Assembly (NCBI GenBank): GCA_903933915.1
Contig: CAIZLW010000232.1
Span: 1-40,851, forward strand
DNA from: an uncultured beta proteobacterium
GTDB taxonomy: Bacteria > Pseudomonadota > Gammaproteobacteria > Burkholderiales > SG8-41
DNA: 40,851 bases
Direction of reading: 5' to 3'
A program made the translations under genes and the position numbers. The notes beneath the pieces are model-generated. The model worked only from the letters and a program-made list of their open reading frames with translations, was not told the origin of the DNA and searched no databases. This document shows positions 12,805-23,074 of this stretch, piece by piece (within the stretch, counting starts at the first letter, position 1; each line of letters begins with the position of its first letter).

Positions 12805-14001
12805 ATGAATACTGCAACTGCTAATAGAAACAATGTGAACCTGCACGATGTCGCGATCATCGGTGGCGGGCTGGTGGGCGCCAGCCTGGCTCTGGCTTTA
12901 CAGCCGGCCGGGCTGAATGTTGCGCTGGTCGAGCCGCAGCCGGCAGCCGTAACGGCGGATGGGGACTGGGACAGCCGCATCTATGCGATCAGTCCGGGCA
13001 ATGCCGCTTTCCTGACGCGGCTGGGTGTCTGGACAAGGCTGGATCCGCAGCGGGTGCAACGCGTCGAAACAATGGTCATATCCGGTGACCGACGCGACAG
13101 CCGGTTGCAGTTCAGTGCCTACGATGCAGGATTGCCCGAACTCGCCTACATCGTCGAGAGCAGTGCGCTGCAGCGTGCGATGCTCGATATGATCGCCGTC
13201 GAGCCGGGCGTTTGCATGTTGTGCCCTGCACAGGCGACAGGGCTCGCCGTAATGGATGACGCTGCCCGGGTGACGCTGGCCGACGGTTCTTTGCTGGATG
13301 CGCAACTGGTGGTCGGCACCGACGGTCGTGATTCGCTGGTGCGGCGCGAGGCGGGTATCGACGCGAAGATCAGCGATTACCGGCAATCCGGCGTGGTGGC
13401 CAACTTCGCCACCGAAAAGCCCCATCACGGCAGCGCTTTTCAGTGGTTTTTCGAAGACGGCATTCTCGCGCTGCTGCCGTTGCCGGGCAACCGGGTGTCG
13501 ATGGTGTGGTCGACTTCCGAAGAATATACGCAGACGTTGTTGTCGCTGGATGCGCAGGCGCTCGCGGATCGCGTGGCTGAGGCCAGCGGCGGCGCCGTGG
13601 GCATGCTGCAGCTGATGACGCCGGCGGCGGCTTTCCCGCTGCGTCTGGCGAAAATTGCGCGCCTGGTGTCGGCGCGTCTCGCGCTCGCCGGCGATGCCGC
13701 CCATAATGTTCACCCGCTGGCGGGGCAGGGCGTGAACCTGGGTTTTCGCGATGTGCGTGTGCTGGCCGAAGTGCTGGCGAGTCGTGCGCCGCGCCAGGAT
13801 TGCGGCGATCTGGCGCTGCTGCGCCGTTACGAACGGGCGCGGCGCGAAGATATTGCCGCCATTGCCATGAGCACTGACGCGTTGCAGAAACTTTTCGGCT
13901 CGCGGTCGGTCTTGTTATCCGGGGTACGCAATTTCGGCCTTGGCGCGTTAAACCAACTGCCGGTCCTGAAGAACCTGCTGATCCAGCACGCGGTGGCCTG
14001 A
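12805..14001 (+). CDS. UbiH/UbiF/VisC-family FAD-dependent hydroxylase
   Basis: This 398-residue flavoprotein monooxygenase most likely hydroxylates the ring of a ubiquinone precursor. The FAD dinucleotide-binding motif IIGGGLVGAS is at 18-27, the DG-type motif (VGTDGRDSLVR) near 172, and the second FAD motif LAGDAAHNVHPLAGQGVNLGFRD near 295-315, which is diagnostic for the family. Which ring position it acts on (UbiH, UbiI, UbiF or the broad UbiM) cannot be told. It faces away from tRNA-Met and begins the plus-strand run; coq7 later in the window covers the C6 step. Confidence 0.9.
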   Translation: MNTATANRNNVNLHDVAIIGGGLVGASLALALQPAGLNVALVEPQPAAVTADGDWDSRIYAISPGNAAFLTRLGVWTRLDPQRVQRVETMVISGDRRDSRLQFSAYDAGLPELAYIVESSALQRAMLDMIAVEPGVCMLCPAQATGLAVMDDAARVTLADGSLLDAQLVVGTDGRDSLVRREAGIDAKISDYRQSGVVANFATEKPHHGSAFQWFFEDGILALLPLPGNRVSMVWSTSEEYTQTLLSLDAQALADRVAEASGGAVGMLQLMTPAAAFPLRLAKIARLVSARLALAGDAAHNVHPLAGQGVNLGFRDVRVLAEVLASRAPRQDCGDLALLRRYERARREDIAAIAMSTDALQKLFGSRSVLLSGVRNFGLGALNQLPVLKNLLIQHAVA

Positions 14002-14046
14002 TCGCCGCACCTGTCAACAACGAGCCTCGTGCTCAGGAAATTATTC

Positions 14047-14757
14047 ATGTTCATCCGAAATGTTCTGGCGCTGTGTATCGGCCTTGCTTTTGTTTTTCAG
14101 GCTTGGGCTGACGAAAGCATCGTCCGAAAGAATTTTCAGTCGCGTTTCCCGGGCATGAAAATCGAATCGATCGCGCGTACGCCTTTTCCCGGGCTGTATG
14201 AGGTGGTGTTTGACGGGCAGGTGGTTTACACCGATGAAAAACTCGCTTATTTGATGAACGGCAACCTGTTTGATCTGCGCACAACTCAGGAGCGCAACCT
14301 GACGCAGGAACGCCGCGACCAGATGGCCACCGGCGCGCTGGCCAGCGCCCAGGGCAACGCCATCAAGCGGGTGCGCGGTAACGGCAAGCGCGTGGTTTAT
14401 ACCTTCGAAGATCCGAACTGCGGCTATTGCAGGGAACTGCAGAAGGAACTCAATAAGATGACCGACGTTACCGTCTACACCTTCCTGCTGCCGATTTTGT
14501 CGCCGGATTCGGTCGAAAAATCGAAGGCCGTCTGGTGCGCCAAGGATCGTTCACGAACCTGGGATGATCTGATGAACAAGGCGGCGCTGCCGGCAAATGC
14601 CGCGAAAAACTGCACAACGCCGCTCGAAGAAAATGCCGCGCTGGCAAAACGTTTCGGCGTTCGCGGTACGCCGGCGATTTATCTGGCGAACGGCCAGCAG
14701 ATTGGCGGCTTTTTGCCGGCCGACAAGATCGAGCAGGCGCTGGCCGCCCTCAAATAA
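14047..14757 (+). CDS. dsbC: Thiol:disulfide interchange protein DsbC
   Basis: DsbC is the periplasmic disulfide isomerase. The 236-residue protein has a signal peptide (residues 1-20, cut after QAWA), an N-terminal dimerisation domain, a linker, and a thioredoxin-like domain with the active site CGYC and cis-proline motif RGTPAIYL. A second cysteine pair is present at WCAKD and NCTTP, as in E. coli DsbC. The ATG at 14047 was preferred over a GTG at 14029 because it has an AGGAAA ribosome site at the right distance and gives a normal signal peptide. Confidence 0.95.
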   Translation: MFIRNVLALCIGLAFVFQAWADESIVRKNFQSRFPGMKIESIARTPFPGLYEVVFDGQVVYTDEKLAYLMNGNLFDLRTTQERNLTQERRDQMATGALASAQGNAIKRVRGNGKRVVYTFEDPNCGYCRELQKELNKMTDVTVYTFLLPILSPDSVEKSKAVWCAKDRSRTWDDLMNKAALPANAAKNCTTPLEENAALAKRFGVRGTPAIYLANGQQIGGFLPADKIEQALAALK

Positions 14758-14784
14758 CACCGCACGATTTCATGTAGTCCGTCG

Positions 14785-15396
14785 ATGATTGCCGGCGCGT
14801 GGAACGCATCACCGGCCGGCCGCTGGCCGTGGCGACGCCTGCTGCCGGCGTTGATCGCGTCGGCGCTGGCGCATTACCTGATCGTTGACGGCTGGCCGCC
14901 ATCCGGCGGCATAGCGCATGTTCCCGCGGCAAGGCTGCAACTGCAGGCCCAGCTGGAATTGCCGGGCGAACCGCTTGTGGTGCCGGAGATCCGGTCGGGC
15001 GAACGACCCGTTGAGCCGATACTGGCGCCGCCGGCGGCGCCAGCGGTAGCGACGCCGCCGGCTGTTGCGGCCGTCGAGCGGCAGCCTGCGCCAAGCGCGG
15101 GTGCCGCAGTGCCTGATTCGCGCATTTATCCGGCGCGCGAACTGGACCGTTATCCGTTCCCGCTGGCGCCGCTGGATCTGCGTGCCGTCCCGGGCCAAAT
15201 GGGTATTGTGCGTTTCTGGATCACGATCGACCCCGCCGGCAATGTGGTTGATGTTGAGCGGGTTGAAAACGATGTGCCGGCGGCCCTGGCGTCGCTGGCC
15301 CGCCAGTTGCTGCTGGCGACACGATTTGAGCCCGGGGTCAAGGAAGAGCGTCCTGTAAAGTGCCGGATTTTGCTGGAACTGCGCTACGGATCGTGA
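14785..15396 (+). CDS. Membrane-anchored protein with TonB C-terminal domain
   Basis: The 203-residue protein has a basic N-terminus, one membrane helix (about 17-36), a Pro/Ala-rich linker (70-115), and a TonB-type C-terminal domain (about 120-203) with GQMGIVRFWITIDPAGNV and a strand-helix-strand end. The layout is that of an energy transducer, but there are no exbB/exbD genes beside it. It may act with distant ExbBD or have another periplasmic role. The start lacks a strong ribosome site. Confidence 0.78.
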   Translation: MIAGAWNASPAGRWPWRRLLPALIASALAHYLIVDGWPPSGGIAHVPAARLQLQAQLELPGEPLVVPEIRSGERPVEPILAPPAAPAVATPPAVAAVERQPAPSAGAAVPDSRIYPARELDRYPFPLAPLDLRAVPGQMGIVRFWITIDPAGNVVDVERVENDVPAALASLARQLLLATRFEPGVKEERPVKCRILLELRYGS

Positions 15397-15430
15397 GTGT
15401 ATTGACGTCGGTTACGGCGGCGCTTTGGGT

Positions 15431-15436
15431 TAAAAT
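15431..15436 (+). promoter_or_regulatory. Possible -10 box before the metallo-hydrolase gene
   Basis: TAAAAT stands in the 159-bp gap (15397-15555) between the TonB-like gene and the metallo-hydrolase gene. I see no convincing -35 box at 17 bases, so this is only a candidate start point for the signalling cluster. A 24-codon ORF in the gap (about 15470-15541) looks like chance. Confidence 0.25.
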
Positions 15437-15555
15437 TGTCTTCTACCTTCATTTTGCGAAAGCGCAGCATGAGCACCTCGTCAGGGGCCCATAACGCTGT
15501 TTCCTGCTCCGCGAGCGCATTGGCGCCAGCGGTGAGTTCCTAGGTTCAGCACATC

Positions 15556-16326
15556 ATGCGTCTGCGCATACTCGGCTGCTCCGGCAGCATCGGCGGACAA
15601 CAGCACCGGACGACTTCGTTCCTGCTGGATCAGGATATCCTTATCGATGCAGGCACCGGTGTCGGCGAGCTTTCCCTGGCGGAACTGGCGCTGATCGACC
15701 ATGTGTTTGTGACGCATTCACATCTGGATCACGTCGATTCCATTGCCTTCGTTCTGGACTCCGTCGGCGCGTTGCGGCCGAAACCGCTGACCGTGCATGC
15801 CACGGCGCCGACGATCGGGATTCTGAAAAAGAACCTGTTCAACTGGGACATCTGGCCCGACTTCACGGTGATTCCGACCCCTCAGGAACCGTTCATGCGT
15901 TACCAGGAAATAGCCGTCGGCAACGTCATCGACATCGGCAAAGGGCGCACGATTACCGCGTTACCGGCCAACCATACGGTGCCCGCGGTCGGTTACTGGC
16001 TGAACAGCGGGAAAGGCAGCCTGGTGTTCAGCGGTGATACCGGTCCGAACGATGCGTTGTGGGAGGTCGTCAACGGCGTCGACAATCTGAAATACCTGAT
16101 TATCGAAACCGCTTTTTCCGACAAGGACCGCCGTCTCGCCGAACTGGCGCTGCATTTGTGTCCGTCGATGCTCGGCGAGGAACTGGCGAAGCTGAAGCGT
16201 CCGGCCGAGGTTTACATTACTCACCTCAAGCCCAGCGAAATCGAACTGACGATGCAGGAGATCGAAGAGCTTTCCACCCCGGTTCCGCCCCGGCTGCTGC
16301 ATAACAACCAGGTTTTCGACTTCTGA
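15556..16326 (+). CDS. Metallo-beta-lactamase-fold hydrolase, putative 3',5'-cyclic-nucleotide phosphodiesterase
   Basis: The 256-residue cytoplasmic protein has the metal site THSHLDHVDS (HxHxDH) at about residues 53-62, a later metal-binding histidine in PANHTVPAVGY, the FSGDTGPN aspartate motif, and a C-terminal YITHLKP histidine. The N-terminus MRLRILGCSGSIGG and the THSHLDH context resemble class II cyclic-nucleotide phosphodiesterases and related MBL proteins. That it cleaves cAMP is inferred from family resemblance and from the adenylate/guanylate cyclase three genes downstream. It heads the signalling cluster. Confidence 0.8.
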   Translation: MRLRILGCSGSIGGQQHRTTSFLLDQDILIDAGTGVGELSLAELALIDHVFVTHSHLDHVDSIAFVLDSVGALRPKPLTVHATAPTIGILKKNLFNWDIWPDFTVIPTPQEPFMRYQEIAVGNVIDIGKGRTITALPANHTVPAVGYWLNSGKGSLVFSGDTGPNDALWEVVNGVDNLKYLIIETAFSDKDRRLAELALHLCPSMLGEELAKLKRPAEVYITHLKPSEIELTMQEIEELSTPVPPRLLHNNQVFDF

Positions 16327-16432
16327 TGCGGAATGCGGGCGCGGCTTGTGCGTCCGCCGGTCAGCACGGAGAATTTCCTCAGGGGCGCCGCGGATCCGGC
16401 GCAGGCATTTCAGCAGGCATTCCAATTCCAAG

Positions 16433-17677
16433 ATGAAAAAAGAAGTCCCAGTAGAAAAACTCGAATTCGGCGTGTTCATCGCCGAACTGGACCGCCCATG
16501 GACGGAAACGCCGTTCATGTACCAGGGCTTTATCCTCAGCAACGAGAAGCAACTGGAAGCGCTGAAGAAATACTGCAAAAAAGTTTATATCGACCTCGAG
16601 AAGGGGCCGGACCTTCCCGATCGCAGTCAGTTGCTGACCGGTGACGTGGGCGGTCCGCCGAAGCCGCCGCCCCCGCTGGGCCCCAGTGTACTGACCACCA
16701 TCAAGACCAGGGTGGCCTACCGTGAACAGGCCACGGTTGATGAAGAGTTGCCGGTGGCCCGTACCGCGCAGCGCCAGACCGAGGTCGTGCTCAAGGAAAT
16801 CATGAGCAACGTCGAAGCCGGCAAGGCACTCGATGCGCCACGGGTGCAGGAGGCGGTGACCAGCATGACGGACAGCGTGGTGCGCAATCCGGACGCGATG
16901 ATGCTGCTCGCCAAACTCAAGCAGAAGGGCGGGCATACGCTGGACCGTGCTTTCGGCGTATCGATTTACATGCTGACTTTCGGACGTTTTTTGCAATTGC
17001 CGCGCGAACAGCTTGATCTGCTGGGCATGGTCGGCCTGCTGCAGGACGTCGGCATGACCGCGGTGCCCGAGGAAGTGGTGGCCAAGAAGGGGTCGCTCAG
17101 CAAGGTCGAGCTGATGGTGTGCCGCAGCCACATTACCCATTCGGTGGCGATACTCAGGGACACTCCGGGACTGCCGCCCGAACTGCCTGCACTGGCGGCG
17201 CTGCATCATGAGCGGTATGACGGCAGCGGCTACGACAAGGGGCTGAAGGGAGATCAGATCGGTCTGTTTGGTTCGATCGCCGGCCTGGTCGACTGTTTCG
17301 ACGCGATGATTCATACGCGGTCCTACGGCGAAGTGTATTCGCCGTCGAACGCGCTCAATTATCTGTATAACGCGCGCAACAGTCTGTTCGACGGCCCGTT
17401 GGTCGAGCAGTTCGTGCAATGCATCGGCATTTTCCCGGTCGGCGCTCTGGTCGAGCTGAATTCCGGCGAGATCGGCATCGTGATCGCGCAGAATATGGTG
17501 CGGCGCCTGCTGCCGCGGGTGATGGTGGTTCTCGACGCAAAAGGCAACCCGTTGCATCCGCAGATGATCCTCGATCTGGCGCAGGAGCCGAAGGCCTCGC
17601 CGGGTGTTCCTTACCGCATCAAGCGCACTCTGGAGCAGGGCAGTGTCAACATTGATCCCTCCGAATTCTTCCTCTGA
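16433..17677 (+). CDS. DUF3391 / degenerate HD-GYP domain protein
   Basis: The 414-residue protein has an N-terminal DUF3391-like region (about 1-60), a Pro-rich linker (74-84), an HD-GYP domain (about 140-335) and a small C-terminal extension. HD-GYP enzymes hydrolyse c-di-GMP with a metal centre. Here the HD pair reads QD (Gln204-Asp205 in GLLQDVGM), GYP reads GYD (266-268 in HHERYDGSGYD), and the first histidine expected near 172-176 is absent. His233, His236 and the HHE at 258-260 remain. It is probably a sensor or partner, not a working enzyme. The gene overlaps the next by 35 bases. The ATG lacks a good ribosome site. Confidence 0.87.
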   Translation: MKKEVPVEKLEFGVFIAELDRPWTETPFMYQGFILSNEKQLEALKKYCKKVYIDLEKGPDLPDRSQLLTGDVGGPPKPPPPLGPSVLTTIKTRVAYREQATVDEELPVARTAQRQTEVVLKEIMSNVEAGKALDAPRVQEAVTSMTDSVVRNPDAMMLLAKLKQKGGHTLDRAFGVSIYMLTFGRFLQLPREQLDLLGMVGLLQDVGMTAVPEEVVAKKGSLSKVELMVCRSHITHSVAILRDTPGLPPELPALAALHHERYDGSGYDKGLKGDQIGLFGSIAGLVDCFDAMIHTRSYGEVYSPSNALNYLYNARNSLFDGPLVEQFVQCIGIFPVGALVELNSGEIGIVIAQNMVRRLLPRVMVVLDAKGNPLHPQMILDLAQEPKASPGVPYRIKRTLEQGSVNIDPSEFFL

Positions 17678-19409
17678 AACGACCGACGGCGAAGCCGCCC
17701 CCAGCCTCGATGCGCTGACGGCGCGGCTTGCCGAGGAATTCGGCGCCGGACCCGACACCTTATCAACCGTCGCCGCGGTGTTTGCCGATGTGCGCGAGCT
17801 CGCACCGGACCTGTTCGTACCGGCCGCCGGCGCTCTGGATGCGGCGTTTGCCAAAGCCGGCGCCGGTCCGGCACCGATTATGGCGGCGCTGGGGGAATGG
17901 GCGCTTGATGCCGAGGGCGAACCGCTGGAGCGCATGCGCCGCGACTGCCAGCGTTTCCAGGCGGCGATGACCCGCGGTGCACTGCGCTTGTACGCGGCGG
18001 AGCCGGAACGTTGCGCGGACAGCCTGATTGCCCTGCAGCGCTTCAACTTCCTGCAACTGGCCCTGCTGGCGTCGCTGGCCGCGCGTGGCCAGGATGAGGG
18101 CGGCGTGGTGCGCACGCTGCCGACGCCTGAATACGCGTCGTTCATGGAAATTTTCCGCACTGCCATCGAGACGCACAAGCAGGACGGCAAACACCTCGCC
18201 CTGTTGCTGCTGCAGGTCGGTAAAACCGAGCAGATCGACCGCCAGTTGGGCCTGCAGAAAGGCGAGGCGTTCATGCTGCGGGTGACGCGGCGTATGCGCG
18301 AGGGTGTGCTGCGCAAACAGGATCAGCTGGGCCGTATCAGCCGCGACCAGTTTGCCTGCTTGTTGCCGCGCATCGCCGGCGAAGGCGTGGCGATACTCGC
18401 CGCCAACAAGGTGCTCGGTGCTCTGGAAGCGCCGATTCCGCTCGGCGATCGTTCGTTTGATACCGATGCGGTGATCGGCATTGCGTTGTTTCCGGAGCAT
18501 GGCAGCGACCCGCAGACGCTGGTGCGCAATGCCAAACTGGCCGTCAGGGAAGCGCGCAACGCGCCGGGTCGCACGGTTGTTTATGATCCGGCCCATGGCG
18601 CCAGCGAGGAGCGCGAGATGCGCTACGAATCCCGCCTTCGCATGGCCTTGGAGCAGGGTACGCTCGGCCTGGTGTTCGAACCGCAACTCGACGCGCAGTC
18701 GGGACGCATCGGCGGGCTCGACTGCATCCTGCGCTGGACCGATACCGAACTCGGCGAGGTATCCGAAGCGCAGGCCCTGCAGACCGCAGAGACTTCGGGG
18801 GTGATCCGCGAACTGACCTGGTGGATCTTCAACAATGCCTTGCGTCAGGGCGCCGAGTTTGCGCGCGCCGGACTCGAGTGCAAGCTGGGGCTCAAGGTTT
18901 CCGCGAGCGGACTGTTGCAGCCGGATTTTCCCGAGTTCGTCGATCGTGCACTGCGTACCTGGGGCGTGCCGCCGGGACGTGTGGTCATCGGCATTCATGA
19001 GACTGCGATTGCGGGGGATCTCGGTCCGGTCAAGGACGCGCTGTCAAGGCTGAAGCGGCTGGGTGTGCGTCTGGGCATCGACGGGTTTGCCACGGGCGCA
19101 TCGTCGCTGAGCAATCTCGCGCAATTGCCGTTCGATGAACTGAAGCTGAGCGCGAGTTTTGTCACTGACATGCAGCGTTCGGAAATCCACAACAAACTGG
19201 TGCGCGCGCTGGTCAGACTTGCGCGCGATCTCGGATTCAGACTGACGGCGGAAGGTGTCAACGACGGGCAGACGGTAGTGGCGTTGCTCGGCATCGGTTG
19301 CGAACGCGTACAGGGCGCGCATGTCAGTGAGCCGTTGACTGCGCAGGACATCCTGATTTTTGAACAAAGCGGTTCGGGACTGGCAAAACTGCGTCTGTCC
19401 GACCTTTGA
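17643..19409 (+). CDS. Degenerate GGDEF-EAL domain protein
   Basis: This 588-residue protein has a helical N-terminal region (1-150), a GGDEF-like domain (about 165-315) and an EAL-like domain (about 330-575). The cyclase signature is SRDQF (233-237) in place of GGDEF. The EAL signature is DCI (360-362), the metal-binding Asn is Lys418, the DD pair is DG (480-481), and the Asp after the lysine motif is lost (Ser503). Glu453, Lys501, Glu537 and Gln557 are kept. Both activities are therefore doubtful; nucleotide binding may remain. The GTG at 17643 has a GGAG site seven bases upstream and overlaps the HD-GYP gene, so translation is likely coupled. Confidence 0.85.
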   Translation: MSTLIPPNSSSETTDGEAAPSLDALTARLAEEFGAGPDTLSTVAAVFADVRELAPDLFVPAAGALDAAFAKAGAGPAPIMAALGEWALDAEGEPLERMRRDCQRFQAAMTRGALRLYAAEPERCADSLIALQRFNFLQLALLASLAARGQDEGGVVRTLPTPEYASFMEIFRTAIETHKQDGKHLALLLLQVGKTEQIDRQLGLQKGEAFMLRVTRRMREGVLRKQDQLGRISRDQFACLLPRIAGEGVAILAANKVLGALEAPIPLGDRSFDTDAVIGIALFPEHGSDPQTLVRNAKLAVREARNAPGRTVVYDPAHGASEEREMRYESRLRMALEQGTLGLVFEPQLDAQSGRIGGLDCILRWTDTELGEVSEAQALQTAETSGVIRELTWWIFNNALRQGAEFARAGLECKLGLKVSASGLLQPDFPEFVDRALRTWGVPPGRVVIGIHETAIAGDLGPVKDALSRLKRLGVRLGIDGFATGASSLSNLAQLPFDELKLSASFVTDMQRSEIHNKLVRALVRLARDLGFRLTAEGVNDGQTVVALLGIGCERVQGAHVSEPLTAQDILIFEQSGSGLAKLRLSDL

Positions 19410-19435
19410 TCCGTTCAGCCGCCGGGAGTGCGTAG

Positions 19436-21793
19436 ATGGAGATCAGCGCCGAAGTCGTCCGTGGCATTCTCGAGCACCGGCTCACGCCGGCAGCTGTCGA
19501 GCGCCTGCTGGCCGAGTTGCCGGACGCCGGCAAGGCCCAGTTGCTGTTGCGCATTGCCGCCGTGGCACGCCGCAACACTGCGCTGGTCAATGTCGCGAAC
19601 CGCGTTTCCGACACGCTGTCGCTGGATGTTCTGTTTACCCGCCTGCTGGAGGTGGTGACGGCATCGCTTGATGCCGAACGCAGTTCGCTGTTCCTGCACG
19701 ATGCCGAAACCGGCGAGTTGTTTTCCCGTGTGATGCAGGGCAATGCCGTGGGCGAGGTGCGTTTTCCCGTTGGCCAGGGCATTGCGGGTTCGGTATTCAC
19801 CAGCGGTCGCGGCGAAATCATCCCCGACGCCTATGCGGATCCGCGCTTCAACCGCTGGGTCGATACCGAAACCGGTTACCGCACCCGTAACCTGCTGTGC
19901 GTGCCGATCCGCAACAACCGCAATGAAGTCATTGGCGTTACCCAGGCGCTGAATAAACGCACGGGTGAATTCGACACTGAAGACCAGCAGGCGCTCGAGG
20001 CGCTGGCTTCGCAGGCCGCCGCCGCGCTGGAAAACGCGCGCATGTTCGAGCGGGTCGAGCGCTCACAGCGCGAGGAGGCGCTGCTGCTGGATGTGGTCAG
20101 CTCGATCACATCAGAAATCAAGCTTGATCCGTTGCTTGAAAAAATTCTTGCGGCAGCGACGCTGCTGCTCGGCGCCGACCGCGGGGCACTGTTCCTGTAC
20201 GATGTCGCAAGCAACGAATTGTGGTCGCGGGTCGCCGGCGGCGAGGGATCGGGTGTCATCCGTTTTCCCGCTGGTGTGGGCATTGCCGGAGAATGTTTCA
20301 CCACCGGAAACTGCATCAATATCGACGATGCCTATCGCGATCCGCGCTTCAATCAGGCCGTGGACAAGGACACCGGTTACCGCACGAGCAACATCCTGTG
20401 CATGCCCATCGCCACCCGCGGCGGCAACAAGGTCGGCGTGATGGAGATTCTCAACAAGAAAGAGGGCATGTTCACCGCCGGCGATCAGCGGCGCCTGGAA
20501 GCGCTGTGCGCGCAGGCGGCGGTGTCGATCGAGAACGCACAACTGTTTGAAGATGTCAGCGATTCGCGCAATTACAACGAAAGCATCCTGCGCAGCATGA
20601 GCAATGGCGTGGTCACGCTCAATGCCGGCAACGTTGTCAGCAAGGTCAATCAGTCGGCGTTGCGCATTCTGCAGCGTGCCGAAAGCGACGTGCTGGGGCT
20701 CCAGATCAGCGAAATCTTCAAGGGCCCCAACAGCTGGGTGACCCACAGCCTCGACAAGGTGCAGCGTACCGGACGCACCGACAGCACGGTCGATTCCGAC
20801 CTGGTGCTCGGTGTGCGGCAGGCGGTGTCGGTCAACATGACGGCCGTGCCGCTGCAGGACATGCGTGATAAACGCATCGGTTCGATGCTGATCATGGAGG
20901 ACATCACGCGCGAGAAGCGGTTGCGCAACACGATGTCGCGCTATATGAGCAAGGCCGTGATGGACGAGCTGCTGGAAGGCGGTAACGCGGCGCTGGGCGG
21001 CGTTAATCGCGAGGTCAGTGTGCTGTTTTCCGACATCCGCGGGTTTACCACCATGTCCGAGCGGCTGGGCGCGCGCGAAACGGTGGCCATGCTCAACGAC
21101 TACTTCACCGACATGGTCGACGTCGTTTTTGCGCATAACGGCATTCTCGACAAGTATATCGGCGACATGATCATGGCGGTGTTCGGATCGGTGCGCTCGC
21201 GCCAGGATGATGCGGCGAACGCCGTGATGGTCGGCAGCCGGATGATGATGGCCTTGCGCGAACTCAACCTGCGGCGGGCCGCGGTGGGGCAGGAGCAGAT
21301 CAACATCGGCATCGGCATCAGCACGGGCGATGTAGTGGCCGGCAGCATCGGCTCGCCCAAGCGGCTGGAATATACGGTGATCGGCGACCGGGTCAATCTT
21401 GCCGAGCGTCTGCAGAATGCCAATAAATATTACGGCACGGGCGTGCTGATGTGCGAGACGACGGCAGCGCGGTTGCGCACGCCGGTGCGCATGCGCGATC
21501 TGGATCTGATTCGCGTCCGCGGCATGCAGAGGCCGGTATCCCTGTGTGAAGTGCTGGAACACCATACCGCGGAAAGTTTCCCGCATATGGACGAGGTGAT
21601 TTTCGCTTTTGCCGAAGCGGTCGCCCACTATCGCGACCGCAATTGGGATCAGGCGATCCGCCTGTTCAGCGAGGCGCTCAAGGCCAATCCCGCCGACCGA
21701 CCGTCCAGCCTGTATCTCGAGCGCTGCGAAATCTATCGCAAGACGCCGCCGCCTGCGGACTGGGATGGCGTGTGGTCGCTGAAATCGGATTAA
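19436..21793 (+). CDS. GAF-GAF-PAS class III adenylate/guanylate cyclase
   Basis: The 785-residue protein has GAF1 (about 65-200), GAF2 (230-366), PAS (380-490), a class III cyclase domain (520-705) and a TPR-like helical tail (715-785). Catalytic residues look complete: metal Asp533 (LFSDIRGF) and Asp577 (YIGDMIMAVFG), Lys573 (LDKYIGD), and VNLAER with Asn654 and Arg658. Lys573 and Thr647 in EYTVIGD fit ATP use. Both GAF domains end in NK-x4-F-x3-D (173-183 and 340-350), like the cyclic-nucleotide-binding GAF signature. The order matches cyanobacterial CyaB1. A GGGAG ribosome site precedes the ATG by seven bases; the EAL gene ends 26 bases before. Confidence 0.9.
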   Translation: MEISAEVVRGILEHRLTPAAVERLLAELPDAGKAQLLLRIAAVARRNTALVNVANRVSDTLSLDVLFTRLLEVVTASLDAERSSLFLHDAETGELFSRVMQGNAVGEVRFPVGQGIAGSVFTSGRGEIIPDAYADPRFNRWVDTETGYRTRNLLCVPIRNNRNEVIGVTQALNKRTGEFDTEDQQALEALASQAAAALENARMFERVERSQREEALLLDVVSSITSEIKLDPLLEKILAAATLLLGADRGALFLYDVASNELWSRVAGGEGSGVIRFPAGVGIAGECFTTGNCINIDDAYRDPRFNQAVDKDTGYRTSNILCMPIATRGGNKVGVMEILNKKEGMFTAGDQRRLEALCAQAAVSIENAQLFEDVSDSRNYNESILRSMSNGVVTLNAGNVVSKVNQSALRILQRAESDVLGLQISEIFKGPNSWVTHSLDKVQRTGRTDSTVDSDLVLGVRQAVSVNMTAVPLQDMRDKRIGSMLIMEDITREKRLRNTMSRYMSKAVMDELLEGGNAALGGVNREVSVLFSDIRGFTTMSERLGARETVAMLNDYFTDMVDVVFAHNGILDKYIGDMIMAVFGSVRSRQDDAANAVMVGSRMMMALRELNLRRAAVGQEQINIGIGISTGDVVAGSIGSPKRLEYTVIGDRVNLAERLQNANKYYGTGVLMCETTAARLRTPVRMRDLDLIRVRGMQRPVSLCEVLEHHTAESFPHMDEVIFAFAEAVAHYRDRNWDQAIRLFSEALKANPADRPSSLYLERCEIYRKTPPPADWDGVWSLKSD

Positions 21794-21817
21794 GTCCCGG
21801 TTTTAGCAGTCGAAGGT

Positions 21818-23074
21818 TTATTCGCAAAAGCTGAAGTCCACCGCCGGCGTGCGCCCGGAAATCCGTTCGGCCAGCGCCGCACCGGCGCCGCAAGACTGCG
21901 TCCAGCCCAGCGTGCCGTGCCCCGTGTTGAGCCACAGGTTGCGGTAGCGCGTGCCACCGATGTACGGCACGTTTGATGGGGTCGCCGGGCGCAGTCCGGC
22001 CCACAGCAGTGCGTGATCAGTGTCGGCGGCGCCGGGAAACAGCTCGCTGACCCGGCGCAGGATGGCATCACAGCGCGCCGCCGTCAGCGTCGTGTCGTAA
22101 CCGGTGAATTCTGCCGTGCCGGCGATACGCAGCCGTTCGCCGAGGCGTGAATACACCAGCTTGTGTTCATCGTCGGTCAGTGAAACTGTAAAGGCGCGCT
22201 GCGGATTCACGATCGGCAGCGTCACCGAATAACCTTTCACCGGATAGATGCGCAGATTGATGCCCAGCGGACGCATCAATGCGGCGCTGCGCACGCCGAG
22301 GCACACGACGCAGCCTTCGAGGTTCAGCTGTTCTGTGGAGCCGTCGGCCAGCCGCAATTTCACGCTGGCGATACTTCCGCCCTCGCCCGGCAGCAGCGTT
22401 TCAACGGCTGTGCCAAAGCGGAAGTCCACACCCAGTGCCGTGCATCGCGCCGCGAGTTCAACAGTGAAGCGATGGGCGTCGCCGGATTCATCGTGTGGCG
22501 AGTAGGTGCCACCCGCGATACGGCTGCGCTGCGGCGCCAGTGCCGGTTCGATCGCGATGCATTCCTCTGCAGATTTGGATTCCAGCGTGCAACCCGCGTC
22601 GCGCATCAATTGCGCCGCGTGCTGCGCGGCGCGCCATGCGTCGGGTCTGGTGTAGAAATGCAGGATGCCGCGCGTCTGCTGGTCGTACTGGATGCCGGTT
22701 TCGGCACGCAGTGCCTGCAGCGTGGCACGGCTGTAGTTGCCCAGCGCCACCAGTTGGCGGATGTTATGGCGCAGCCGCGCTGGCGTGCATTGGCGCAGGA
22801 ACGCGAACCCCCAGCGCCATTGCTGCCAGTCGGCGCGCAGGCGGAACAGCAGCGGCGCATCCTCGCGGCCAAGCCAGCGCAGGATTTGCAGCGGTGCCTG
22901 CGGGTTGGCCCAGGGTTCGGCGTGCGACACCGAAATCTGCCCGCCGTTGGCAAACGAGGTTTCCAGTCCCGGACCCTCGCGCTGGTCGATGACGGTGACT
23001 TGGTGGCCGGCTTTGCGCAGGTACCACGCGGTGGCAATGCCCGTGACCCCGGCGCCGAGAACAACGATTTTCAT
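21818..23074 (-). CDS. dadA: D-amino-acid dehydrogenase, small subunit type
   Basis: DadA is a membrane-associated FAD enzyme that oxidatively deaminates D-amino acids such as D-alanine and passes electrons to the quinone pool. The 418-residue protein starts with the FAD motif VVLGAGVTGIATAWYL, followed by the DadA signature SFANGGQISVSHAEPWANP. The C-terminus has GLRPATPSNVPYIGG and NTGHGTLGWT, also typical. It is transcribed toward the cyclase gene with a 24-bp gap and no clear terminator. One of the AT-rich 26-bp blocks lies 42-67 bases upstream. Confidence 0.95.
   Translation of the reverse strand: MKIVVLGAGVTGIATAWYLRKAGHQVTVIDQREGPGLETSFANGGQISVSHAEPWANPQAPLQILRWLGREDAPLLFRLRADWQQWRWGFAFLRQCTPARLRHNIRQLVALGNYSRATLQALRAETGIQYDQQTRGILHFYTRPDAWRAAQHAAQLMRDAGCTLESKSAEECIAIEPALAPQRSRIAGGTYSPHDESGDAHRFTVELAARCTALGVDFRFGTAVETLLPGEGGSIASVKLRLADGSTEQLNLEGCVVCLGVRSAALMRPLGINLRIYPVKGYSVTLPIVNPQRAFTVSLTDDEHKLVYSRLGERLRIAGTAEFTGYDTTLTAARCDAILRRVSELFPGAADTDHALLWAGLRPATPSNVPYIGGTRYRNLWLNTGHGTLGWTQSCGAGAALAERISGRTPAVDFSFCE

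Follow-up and report, generated by a model that had tools for sequence, protein, structure and literature searches.

What do two degenerate enzymes of c-di-GMP turnover do beside an apparently working nucleotide cyclase? The question is raised by four co-directional genes, which together span positions 15556-21793 on the forward strand of the window, the whole analysed stretch of 40,851 nucleotides from an uncultured beta proteobacterium (contig CAIZLW010000232.1). The first gene encodes an MBL-fold, class-II-PDE-like phosphodiesterase (15556-16326), followed by a DUF3391-HD-GYP pseudo-enzyme (16433-17677), a GGDEF-EAL pseudo-enzyme whose N-terminal domain is helical (17643-19409), and a GAF-GAF-PAS-class III cyclase (19436-21793). 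The outer two were assigned by Pfam, solved relatives, and motif reading, and the two pseudo-enzymes by Pfam and alignment to solved relatives. The HD-GYP open reading frame begins at TTG 16346, and the alignment of relatives starts at ATG 16433; the GGDEF-EAL gene starts at GTG 17643 or, alternatively, at 17604. A previous interpretation of the letters alone (the sequence-only reading) had pointed to overlaps and short gaps. These apply to the last three genes, with a 35-bp overlap between the HD-GYP and GGDEF-EAL genes (given the start at 17643) and a cyclase gene beginning 26 bp past the EAL gene, but the MBL and HD-GYP genes are spaced by 106 bp. A consensus scan of positions 14700-22000 gave no excess of promoter-like (2 vs. 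1.6 expected) or terminator-like sites (5 vs. 7.2 expected), and the search for riboswitches and other RNAs in 14000-23000 gave no Rfam match at the gathering threshold. A plasmid-borne locus was dropped, since megablast gave no plasmid match. A defence system was dropped as well, because among the four proteins scanned only the cyclase matched PADLOC (PycC models, best 82 bits); the MBL, HD-GYP, and GGDEF-EAL proteins, considered as Pycsar effectors, had no match at E 0.001.

The cyclase matches GAF (two stretches), PAS, and Guanylate_cyc (5e-25) in Pfam; a weak TPR_2 match near the C-terminus stays under its cut-off. The catalytic motifs FSDIRGFT (21026-21049), LDKYIGD (21146-21166), and EYTVIGDRVNLAER (21368-21409) were all found by motif reading on the forward strand. 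The residues D, D, K, T, N, and R, which we take to be the two metal aspartates, the lysine and the Thr/Asp of the adenine site, the asparagine, and the arginine, are invariant in 37/37 window-type cyclases, which confirms the intact catalytic site claimed before. With the full residue set of class III adenylate cyclases, the protein is predicted to synthesize cAMP. Its best solved relatives include PDB 1ykd and CyaB (3r5g), GAF-containing class III adenylate cyclases that likewise combine a tandem GAF with a class III domain; unlike this type, the window cyclase is linked to c-di-GMP-type pseudo-enzymes.

The second protein matches DUF3391 (3e-24) and HD_5 (9e-25). Aligned to its solved relatives, it carries H, R, Q, and M in place of E185, H189, H221, and K225 of PmGH, and the equivalents of D222, H250, H276, H277, and D305 are kept. 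The HD motif thus reads QD (LQDVGM, 17039-17056, forward strand), and GYP reads GYD (within 17204-17236, forward strand). Among the 37 HD-GYPs of the clade that carries the MBL gene (MBL clade), R stands at H189 in 36 and Q at H221 in 36. In PmGH, the exchanges H189A and H221A are described as essentially abolishing activity (PMC4159591). Judged by H189, H221, D222, H250, H276, and H277, the window protein is predicted not to be an active HD-GYP c-di-GMP phosphodiesterase. It resembles Bd1817, an inactive HD-GYP protein that has the fold without the activity; according to the same source, it is the GYP tyrosine that is missing in Bd1817, whereas the window protein lacks the HD histidine and H189.

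The third protein (GGDEF 3e-18, EAL 1e-51) is altered in both domains. Motif reading gave ISRDQF (18336-18353, forward strand) where GGDEF is expected and GLDCILRW (18714-18737, forward strand), without EXLXR, where the EAL motif is expected. GG(D/E)EF was found in 0/101 pairs versus 13/17 generic controls, the frames of which were first picked by motif, potentially favouring EXLXR and GGDEF, and gave the same counts when chosen by phmmer. By its SRDQF, the window GGDEF domain is without the signature of an active diguanylate cyclase. Compared with solved relatives, the EAL domain shows DCI for EAL, K for the aligned N, DG for DD, KLS for KID, and FEP for YQP. For the catalytic set E(AL), N, E, DD, K, and E, placed in columns according to PDB 5m3c, the window reads DKEDGKE versus ENEDDKE, so that, on these residues, it is predicted not to be an active EAL c-di-GMP phosphodiesterase. 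Pfam and the alignments to solved relatives thus bear out both the four co-directional genes and the residue losses of the two pseudo-enzymes proposed by the sequence-only reading.

In its usual form, the idea that the pseudo-enzymes sense c-di-GMP makes the pair a receptor that binds the messenger via the EAL domain in the manner of LapD or FimX and switches the cyclase on or off. Degenerate EAL domains are described as receptors (PMC10333796), and EXLXR is kept in 18/28 pairs of the clade termed 'QD' that have neither MBL nor an adjacent cyclase. Against this stand the linked pairs, in which EXLXR is kept in 3/31 cases in the MBL clade (with or without cyclase) and in 2/16 other cyclase-adjacent pairs (5/47 overall) versus 17/17 generic GGDEF-EAL controls; this and the other contingencies were counted over rows as they stand, ignoring descent. 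The window itself shows DCILR at this position, plus FEP for YQP, and departs from the FimX/LapD-type receptor signature; the EAL domain is an unlikely c-di-GMP sensor. The better candidate is the I-site of the GGDEF domain. An RxxD resembling an I-site (RKQD) ends five residues ahead of SRDQF and marks a putative c-di-GMP binding site; RxxD is also present in the degenerate-GGDEF receptors PelD and PopA (PMC10333796). It is present in 34/34 and 43/43 (total 77/77) pairs of the QD clade versus 8/17 generic controls; because it is also common outside this clade (19/24), its weight as a sign of binding is low.

The helical N-terminal domain (17646-18128, forward strand, six predicted helices) gave no match in the Pfam search. 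It was found in 34/34 MBL-clade rows, weakly in 1/43 other Q-type rows, and in 0/25 others. A role as globin sensor was rejected: globins lead the Foldseek matches, but their E values are no better than 0.15 and their TM no higher than 0.47 among the 50 matches listed, and the window domain contains no histidine. Trp85, Cys101, and Cys123 are invariant in 34/34 aligned domains. The two cysteines allow for an explanation in which the pair senses a signal that is not a cyclic dinucleotide (e.g., redox or metal via these residues, or a partner protein) and relays it to the cyclase, with no role for c-di-GMP. The loss of the catalytic and EAL binding residues fits this explanation, too. It is rendered rather doubtful by the invariance of RxxD across the QD clade, by the lack of a confident Foldseek match for the structure of the helical domain, and by the absence of this domain from cyclase-adjacent pairs outside the MBL clade.

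The MBL-fold protein matches Lactamase_B_2 (1e-18) and PDEase_II (1e-11). Its metal motif THSHLDH (15712-15732, forward strand) is followed by the later H, D, and H. The pattern [T/S]HXHXDH, reported as the motif of atypical class-II PDEs (PMC9293780), is present together with the other metal ligands in 35/35 pair-linked MBL proteins. PF12706 and this motif are shared with the atypical class-II PDEs Rv1339, YhfI, and C. glutamicum CpdA; unlike this type, the window protein falls below the cut-off of NCBIfam NF041851 (51 bits, cut-off 400) and also matches the PDEase_II family, as well as, in a short stretch only, the yeast-type PDE1 4ojv. Relatives of the MBL gene come after another class III cyclase in 15/16 loci read, a selection out of 94 genomes with a match (CHASE2 in that cyclase was shown at one of these loci). 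By its motifs and families, the protein is of a class-II-PDE-like type, in agreement with the cyclic-nucleotide phosphodiesterase first supposed.

The HD-GYP/GGDEF-EAL pair is widespread across the order. When "intact" is defined by the seven core residues only (L108 was counted as intact despite an altered loop 6) and the 34/131 HD-GYP rows without readable EAL are left out, the EAL domain is intact in 23/23 readable pairs outside the QD clade and degenerate in 71/74 within it. Orthologues with intact residues in the same neighbourhood, named beforehand as evidence against a retained pseudo-enzyme pair, did not turn up: among the linked pairs, the EAL domain could be read in 46, and no pair of these is intact. 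HD-GYPs identical over the last 150 residues were counted once, which gave 134 rows; those above 220 bits were tabulated (131), and those above 240 bits were used for a tree (n = 127). In this tree, the MBL clade comprises 37 rows, another clade comprises 54 and has EAL-intact rows close to its base, and a minimum of three EAL state changes is required; the tree was built by a quick method, and the fork of the 54-row clade has a support of 92 only. EAL degeneration in the QD clade is most simply explained by separate losses. The dN/dS values of the HD-GYP and EAL proteins were 0.026-0.094 and 0.039-0.146 in five genus comparisons, each below UbiH, and 0.14-0.26 and 0.16-0.20 in three comparisons beyond the genus, where synonymous sites are near saturation, as in most genus pairs; the clearest non-saturated comparison is L171 (pS 0.22-0.37). 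This shows purifying selection on both proteins and, with the alignments, substantiates the claim that the pseudo-enzymes are conserved as such.

For the comparison of loci, the best 80 of 243 relatives were used, with genes outside the window called by a simple ORF script and labelled by phmmer. In the QD clade, the association of cyclase and pair recurs in three gene orders, with the window-type cyclase downstream (window genus and two g98 genomes), upstream, or convergent. In family f11, an HD-GYP gene (E no higher than 1e-100) lies no more than 2 kb from 17/20 window-type cyclases (61-66% identity), and 19/20 are linked after contig reading; the genes are thus not mostly apart, as the wording of the sequence-only reading would have had it for refutation. 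The cyclases of 45-48% in this family share a contig with HD-GYP in 0/30 cases; 18 of these 30 are in genomes with an HD-GYP match. In the window genus, the cyclase adjoins the pair in 14/19 HD-GYP-bearing genomes (2 across contig ends). The other five are without a full cyclase beside the pair; G172 has a remnant of 112 residues, and G159, G160, G164, and G165 gave no cyclase match at 1e-60. The pair occurs more often than the cyclase: the window-type cyclase is missing in 31/48 f11 and 36/53 f1 genomes with an HD-GYP match, counts that take in pairs outside the QD clade too. In one QD-clade lineage, it is located elsewhere in the genome. Another 17 genomes were picked because they carry the pair, and in 16 of these no cyclase adjoins it; the cyclase is present but non-adjacent in 13 of the 17 and missing in 3, and the rule that the cyclase is either adjacent or missing was dropped for this reason. 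Two cyclase paralogues of 58-59% and the cyclase of G198 are unlinked to the pair; the cyclase tree was made before the unlinked cyclases of the 17 genomes were found.

The MBL gene joined the pair once, is found there with or without cyclase, and persists when the cyclase is missing. It goes with the pair, not with the cyclase, and the exact four genes were seen together in two genera of one family only. The four-gene set as a single indivisible system was abandoned; the comparison gives separable layers. The neighbourhood might also be common by vertical descent, with no common function. The gene orders sit in separate tree groups, which leaves few independent linkage events, and the 13/17 genomes with the cyclase apart point in the same direction. 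Shared descent does not readily account for the same partners in three different orders, for a cyclase that is in the same genome even when apart from the pair, or for a 45-48% type that is never on an HD-GYP contig; we consider it very unlikely.

Our main reading, to which we give about even odds (a probability of roughly 0.5), is that the catalytically dead pair is a hub that controls the adenylate cyclase, with the MBL protein clearing cAMP, the whole being a cAMP control module. The HD-GYP member would have lost its HD histidine first and the EAL domain its catalysis afterwards; the pair would have survived as a regulatory complex without catalysis, which would bind the GAF-GAF-PAS adenylate cyclase and set its activity. 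The MBL-fold class-II-like phosphodiesterase would have joined the pair in the window's family, so that in the window's genus a single locus would encode both cAMP synthesis and cAMP hydrolysis, on either side of the hub. c-di-GMP, if it enters at all, would probably do so through the degenerate GGDEF domain, at its RxxD I-site, rather than in the EAL pocket. Operon expression, physical contact, the direction of control, the ligand, and cAMP as the product are parts that we infer. That the dead pair travels with an apparently working cyclase suggests that it was retained to control cAMP, not c-di-GMP. A possible extension, put forward tentatively, is a switch of messenger: a c-di-GMP-hydrolysing pair may have lost its activity more than once and become an I-site c-di-GMP relay that sets cAMP synthesis, to which a class-II-like PDE was added in one family.

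Cross-talk between c-di-GMP and cAMP is mostly known via gene expression, with Bd1971 of Bdellovibrio as a case at the protein level. Bd1971 is described as a cAMP-sensing EAL phosphodiesterase and thus, as here, joins both messengers in one system; there, the EAL enzyme is under cAMP control, whereas here dead enzymes adjoin a presumed cAMP maker (PMC6717892). Dead domains retained for regulation are also described for FimX, LapD/BpfD, PelD, and PopA (PMC10333796). Unlike in these, two separate dead proteins are present here, the neighbour is a nucleotide cyclase, and EXLXR is mostly lost. No described system of this kind was found in a literature search in which subscription journals were thinly covered. 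The locus in uncultured betaproteobacteria, where the dead pair has stayed beside an adenylate cyclase despite several rearrangements, would be a compact and testable instance of a direct c-di-GMP/cAMP link at the protein level and an example of enzymes turned regulators. Surviving relatives allow for comparison: the EAL domain is intact in some and degenerate in others, and the cyclase may be present or missing. If the switch of messenger is true, the locus would be a hard-wired c-di-GMP-to-cAMP converter built of dead enzymes.

The source genome of the window is 3.8 Mb in size. The cluster comprises genes for a class-II-phosphodiesterase-like MBL-fold protein (MBL, 15556–16326), a DUF3391-HD-GYP protein (16433–17677), a GGDEF-EAL protein (17643–19409), and a GAF-GAF-PAS class III cyclase (19436–21793). 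Genes for UbiH, DsbC, and a TonB_C protein are located upstream, and a D-amino-acid dehydrogenase is encoded downstream on the opposite strand. The residue losses claimed for the HD-GYP and GGDEF-EAL proteins in the sequence-only reading were confirmed by comparison of residues. In the numbering of PmGH, a solved active HD-GYP protein, H, R, Q, and M replace E185, H189, H221, and K225, and the motif reads GYD; D222, H250, H276, H277, and D305 are retained. An excerpt of the PmGH study reports that H189A or H221A essentially abolished activity (PMC4159591). The EAL domain displays DKEDGKE instead of the seven core residues ENEDDKE, and the GGDEF motif is SRDQF.

The pair of HD-GYP and GGDEF-EAL genes is old and the decay is newer. 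A GGDEF-EAL gene follows the DUF3391-HD-GYP gene in 25 of the 35 HD-GYP ORFs first examined, and this arrangement is widespread in the order Burkholderiales. The table of distinct HD-GYP proteins (n = 131) was picked as matches and not at random, and the EAL domain was unreadable in 34 of the 131. Five metagenome bins with the locus (L208, L211, L247, L254, and L270) are titled Bordetella parapertussis or Chitinophaga pinensis and look mislabelled. A tree of 127 HD-GYP proteins, calculated with a quick method, contains a clade with Q almost always in place of the HD histidine (QD clade, support 98). It consists of an EAL-less group, the 37-row MBL clade (support 100), and a clade of 54 rows (support 92). 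Readable EAL domains in the QD clade number 71 degenerate and 3 intact; outside it, all 23 are intact and none is degenerate. Sorting on the HD residue alone gave 70 degenerate and 2 intact for Q, and 1 degenerate and 24 intact for any other residue. All 23 EAL-intact pairs beyond the QD clade also lack the HD histidine, which is replaced by L (16), M (3), A (2), F (1), or S (1). Because the three EAL-intact rows of the QD clade (L283, L320, and L108, the last with an altered loop 6) branch close to the base of that 54-row clade, the simplest reading is that the EAL domain decayed separately in the two large groups (three changes). The residues lost also differ between these groups.

An excerpt of a review assigns EXLXR to degenerate-EAL receptors and RxxD to degenerate-GGDEF receptors, and its entry on CsrD/MshH gives EXMXR, without binding (PMC10333796). 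Of the pairs lacking Q, 22 of 23 retain EXLXR, as do 17/17 generic GGDEF-EAL controls and 18 of the 28 pairs of the QD clade that have no MBL and no adjacent cyclase. It is retained in 2 of 16 pairs that adjoin a cyclase but lie outside the MBL clade, and in 3 of 31 pairs within that clade. The I-site RxxD is present in 34/34 MBL-clade rows, 43/43 other QD-clade rows, 19/24 others, and 8/17 generic controls. From these counts, the EAL binding signature looks to have been given up where MBL or the cyclase adjoins, while the I-site residues persist; the presence of RxxD does not by itself prove c-di-GMP binding, and counts from related rows are not independent observations. GG(D/E)EF was found in none of 101 pairs, but in 13 of 17 generic controls. 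The EAL proteins of the MBL clade possess an additional N-terminal domain of six predicted helices (window 17646–18128, mean pLDDT 84.6, no Pfam match), which has two cysteines invariant in 34/34 proteins and gave no confident match in a structural search.

All metal ligands are kept in the pair-linked MBL proteins (35 distinct), whose motif matches atypical class-II phosphodiesterases. An excerpt on one of these, Rv1339, reports activity in lysates against cAMP and cGMP and none against c-di-GMP (PMC9293780). The gain of MBL needs one change on the HD-GYP tree, and MBL tracks the pair whether the cyclase is present or absent. In 15 of the 16 loci inspected, its relatives come after a different class III cyclase; at L150, a locus with a 58% MBL paralogue in the window's own genome, this cyclase carries a CHASE2 domain. 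L150 (G000:C54, 8033–17850) and L151–L165 represent a recurrent gene neighbourhood in the order, with genes at L150 for a CHASE2-Ser/Thr kinase, PP2C, FHA, the CHASE2-class III cyclase, the PDE-like MBL protein, and a GAF-MshEN-T2SSE ATPase. L151 adds a GAF-HD_5 gene after this set; domains were read in these two loci, and the others have a similar layout.

Relatives of the window cyclase fell into two groups, one of 58%–100% identity and mostly full length (window-type), the other of 41%–50% identity with alignments from about residue 45 or later; a few alignments begin at about residue 6–30 and some at about 200. Seven loci of this second group (L139–L145) were read, and none has an HD-GYP label. 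At L140, a GGDEF-EAL gene is located nearby on the opposite strand. A small coiled-coil-looking gene precedes the cyclase in six of the seven; the domain scan covered the one at L139.

In the window's genus, HD-GYP is present in 19 of 21 genomes; the cyclase follows EAL on the same contig in 12 and across a contig break in two more, one has a cyclase remnant, and four lack a cyclase match at 1e-60. The remnant (112 residues; L170, 6459–6797, in G172) lies behind an otherwise complete MBL-HD-GYP-EAL set. In genus g98, the cyclase occurs with the pair in G200 (MBL cut) and G201 (MBL beyond the contig end), and on a different contig in G198. In family f11 (98 genomes), HD-GYP lies within 2 kb of 17 of the 20 cyclases of 61%–66% identity, in two further orders, with the cyclase immediately upstream in ten and convergent behind EAL in seven. 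Contig reading added G504 (cyclase convergent with EAL) and G472 (partial HD-GYP adjoining); in G470 the cyclase is at the contig end. Two cyclase paralogues of 58%–59% are unlinked to the pair. None of the 30 f11 cyclases of 45%–48% shares a contig with an HD-GYP match (E at most 1e-100), although for 18 of them the genome does have such a match. The three gene orders fall into separate groups in a cyclase tree (48 rows). At L335 (219–4023; G185, window's family), an EAL gene is convergent with a cyclase that is split between two reading frames (61%–64% identity).

The dependence between pair and cyclase is one-sided. HD-GYP-positive genomes without a window-type cyclase amount to 31 of 48 in f11 and 36 of 53 in family f1, counts which also take in pairs outside the QD clade. 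Among 17 further genomes picked from pair loci, 16 of them without an adjacent cyclase, a window-type cyclase was found elsewhere in 13 (62%–64%; in three of them apparently some 20 kb from the pair on a shared contig), was convergent in L244, and was absent in three, including that of the EAL-intact L283. Surroundings of the cyclase when apart from the pair were read at L323 (5264–14056) and L324 (9313–10851). L323 encodes a methyladenine glycosylase, a CoA-ligase/ATP-grasp/acetyltransferase fusion protein, an AMP-binding enzyme, and another cyclase that matches hemerythrin weakly; the AMP-binding domain was read in L324 too, and gene sizes are similar in several of L322–L334.

The genes are recurrently linked and under selection. 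In five genus comparisons (Nei–Gojobori, synonymous sites partly saturated), dN/dS was 0.042–0.074 for MBL, 0.026–0.094 for HD-GYP, 0.039–0.146 for EAL, 0.050–0.165 for the cyclase, 0.101–0.156 for DsbC, and 0.124–0.243 for UbiH. HD-GYP and EAL were below UbiH in all five comparisons; EAL exceeded DsbC in two.

The individual parts are of known kinds, and the combination was not found in the literature searched. The sequence-only reading had proposed that the pseudo-enzymes sense c-di-GMP or a related ligand and tune cAMP production, with MBL clearing the product; we infer a pair–cyclase contact, the direction of control, and the ligand. Because the window's genome contains five further cyclase-domain matches and 15 cNMP-binding domain matches, cAMP signalling is plausible in this organism. 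The dead c-di-GMP enzymes of the pair would best be explained as a regulatory hub, with an adenylate cyclase as the partner.
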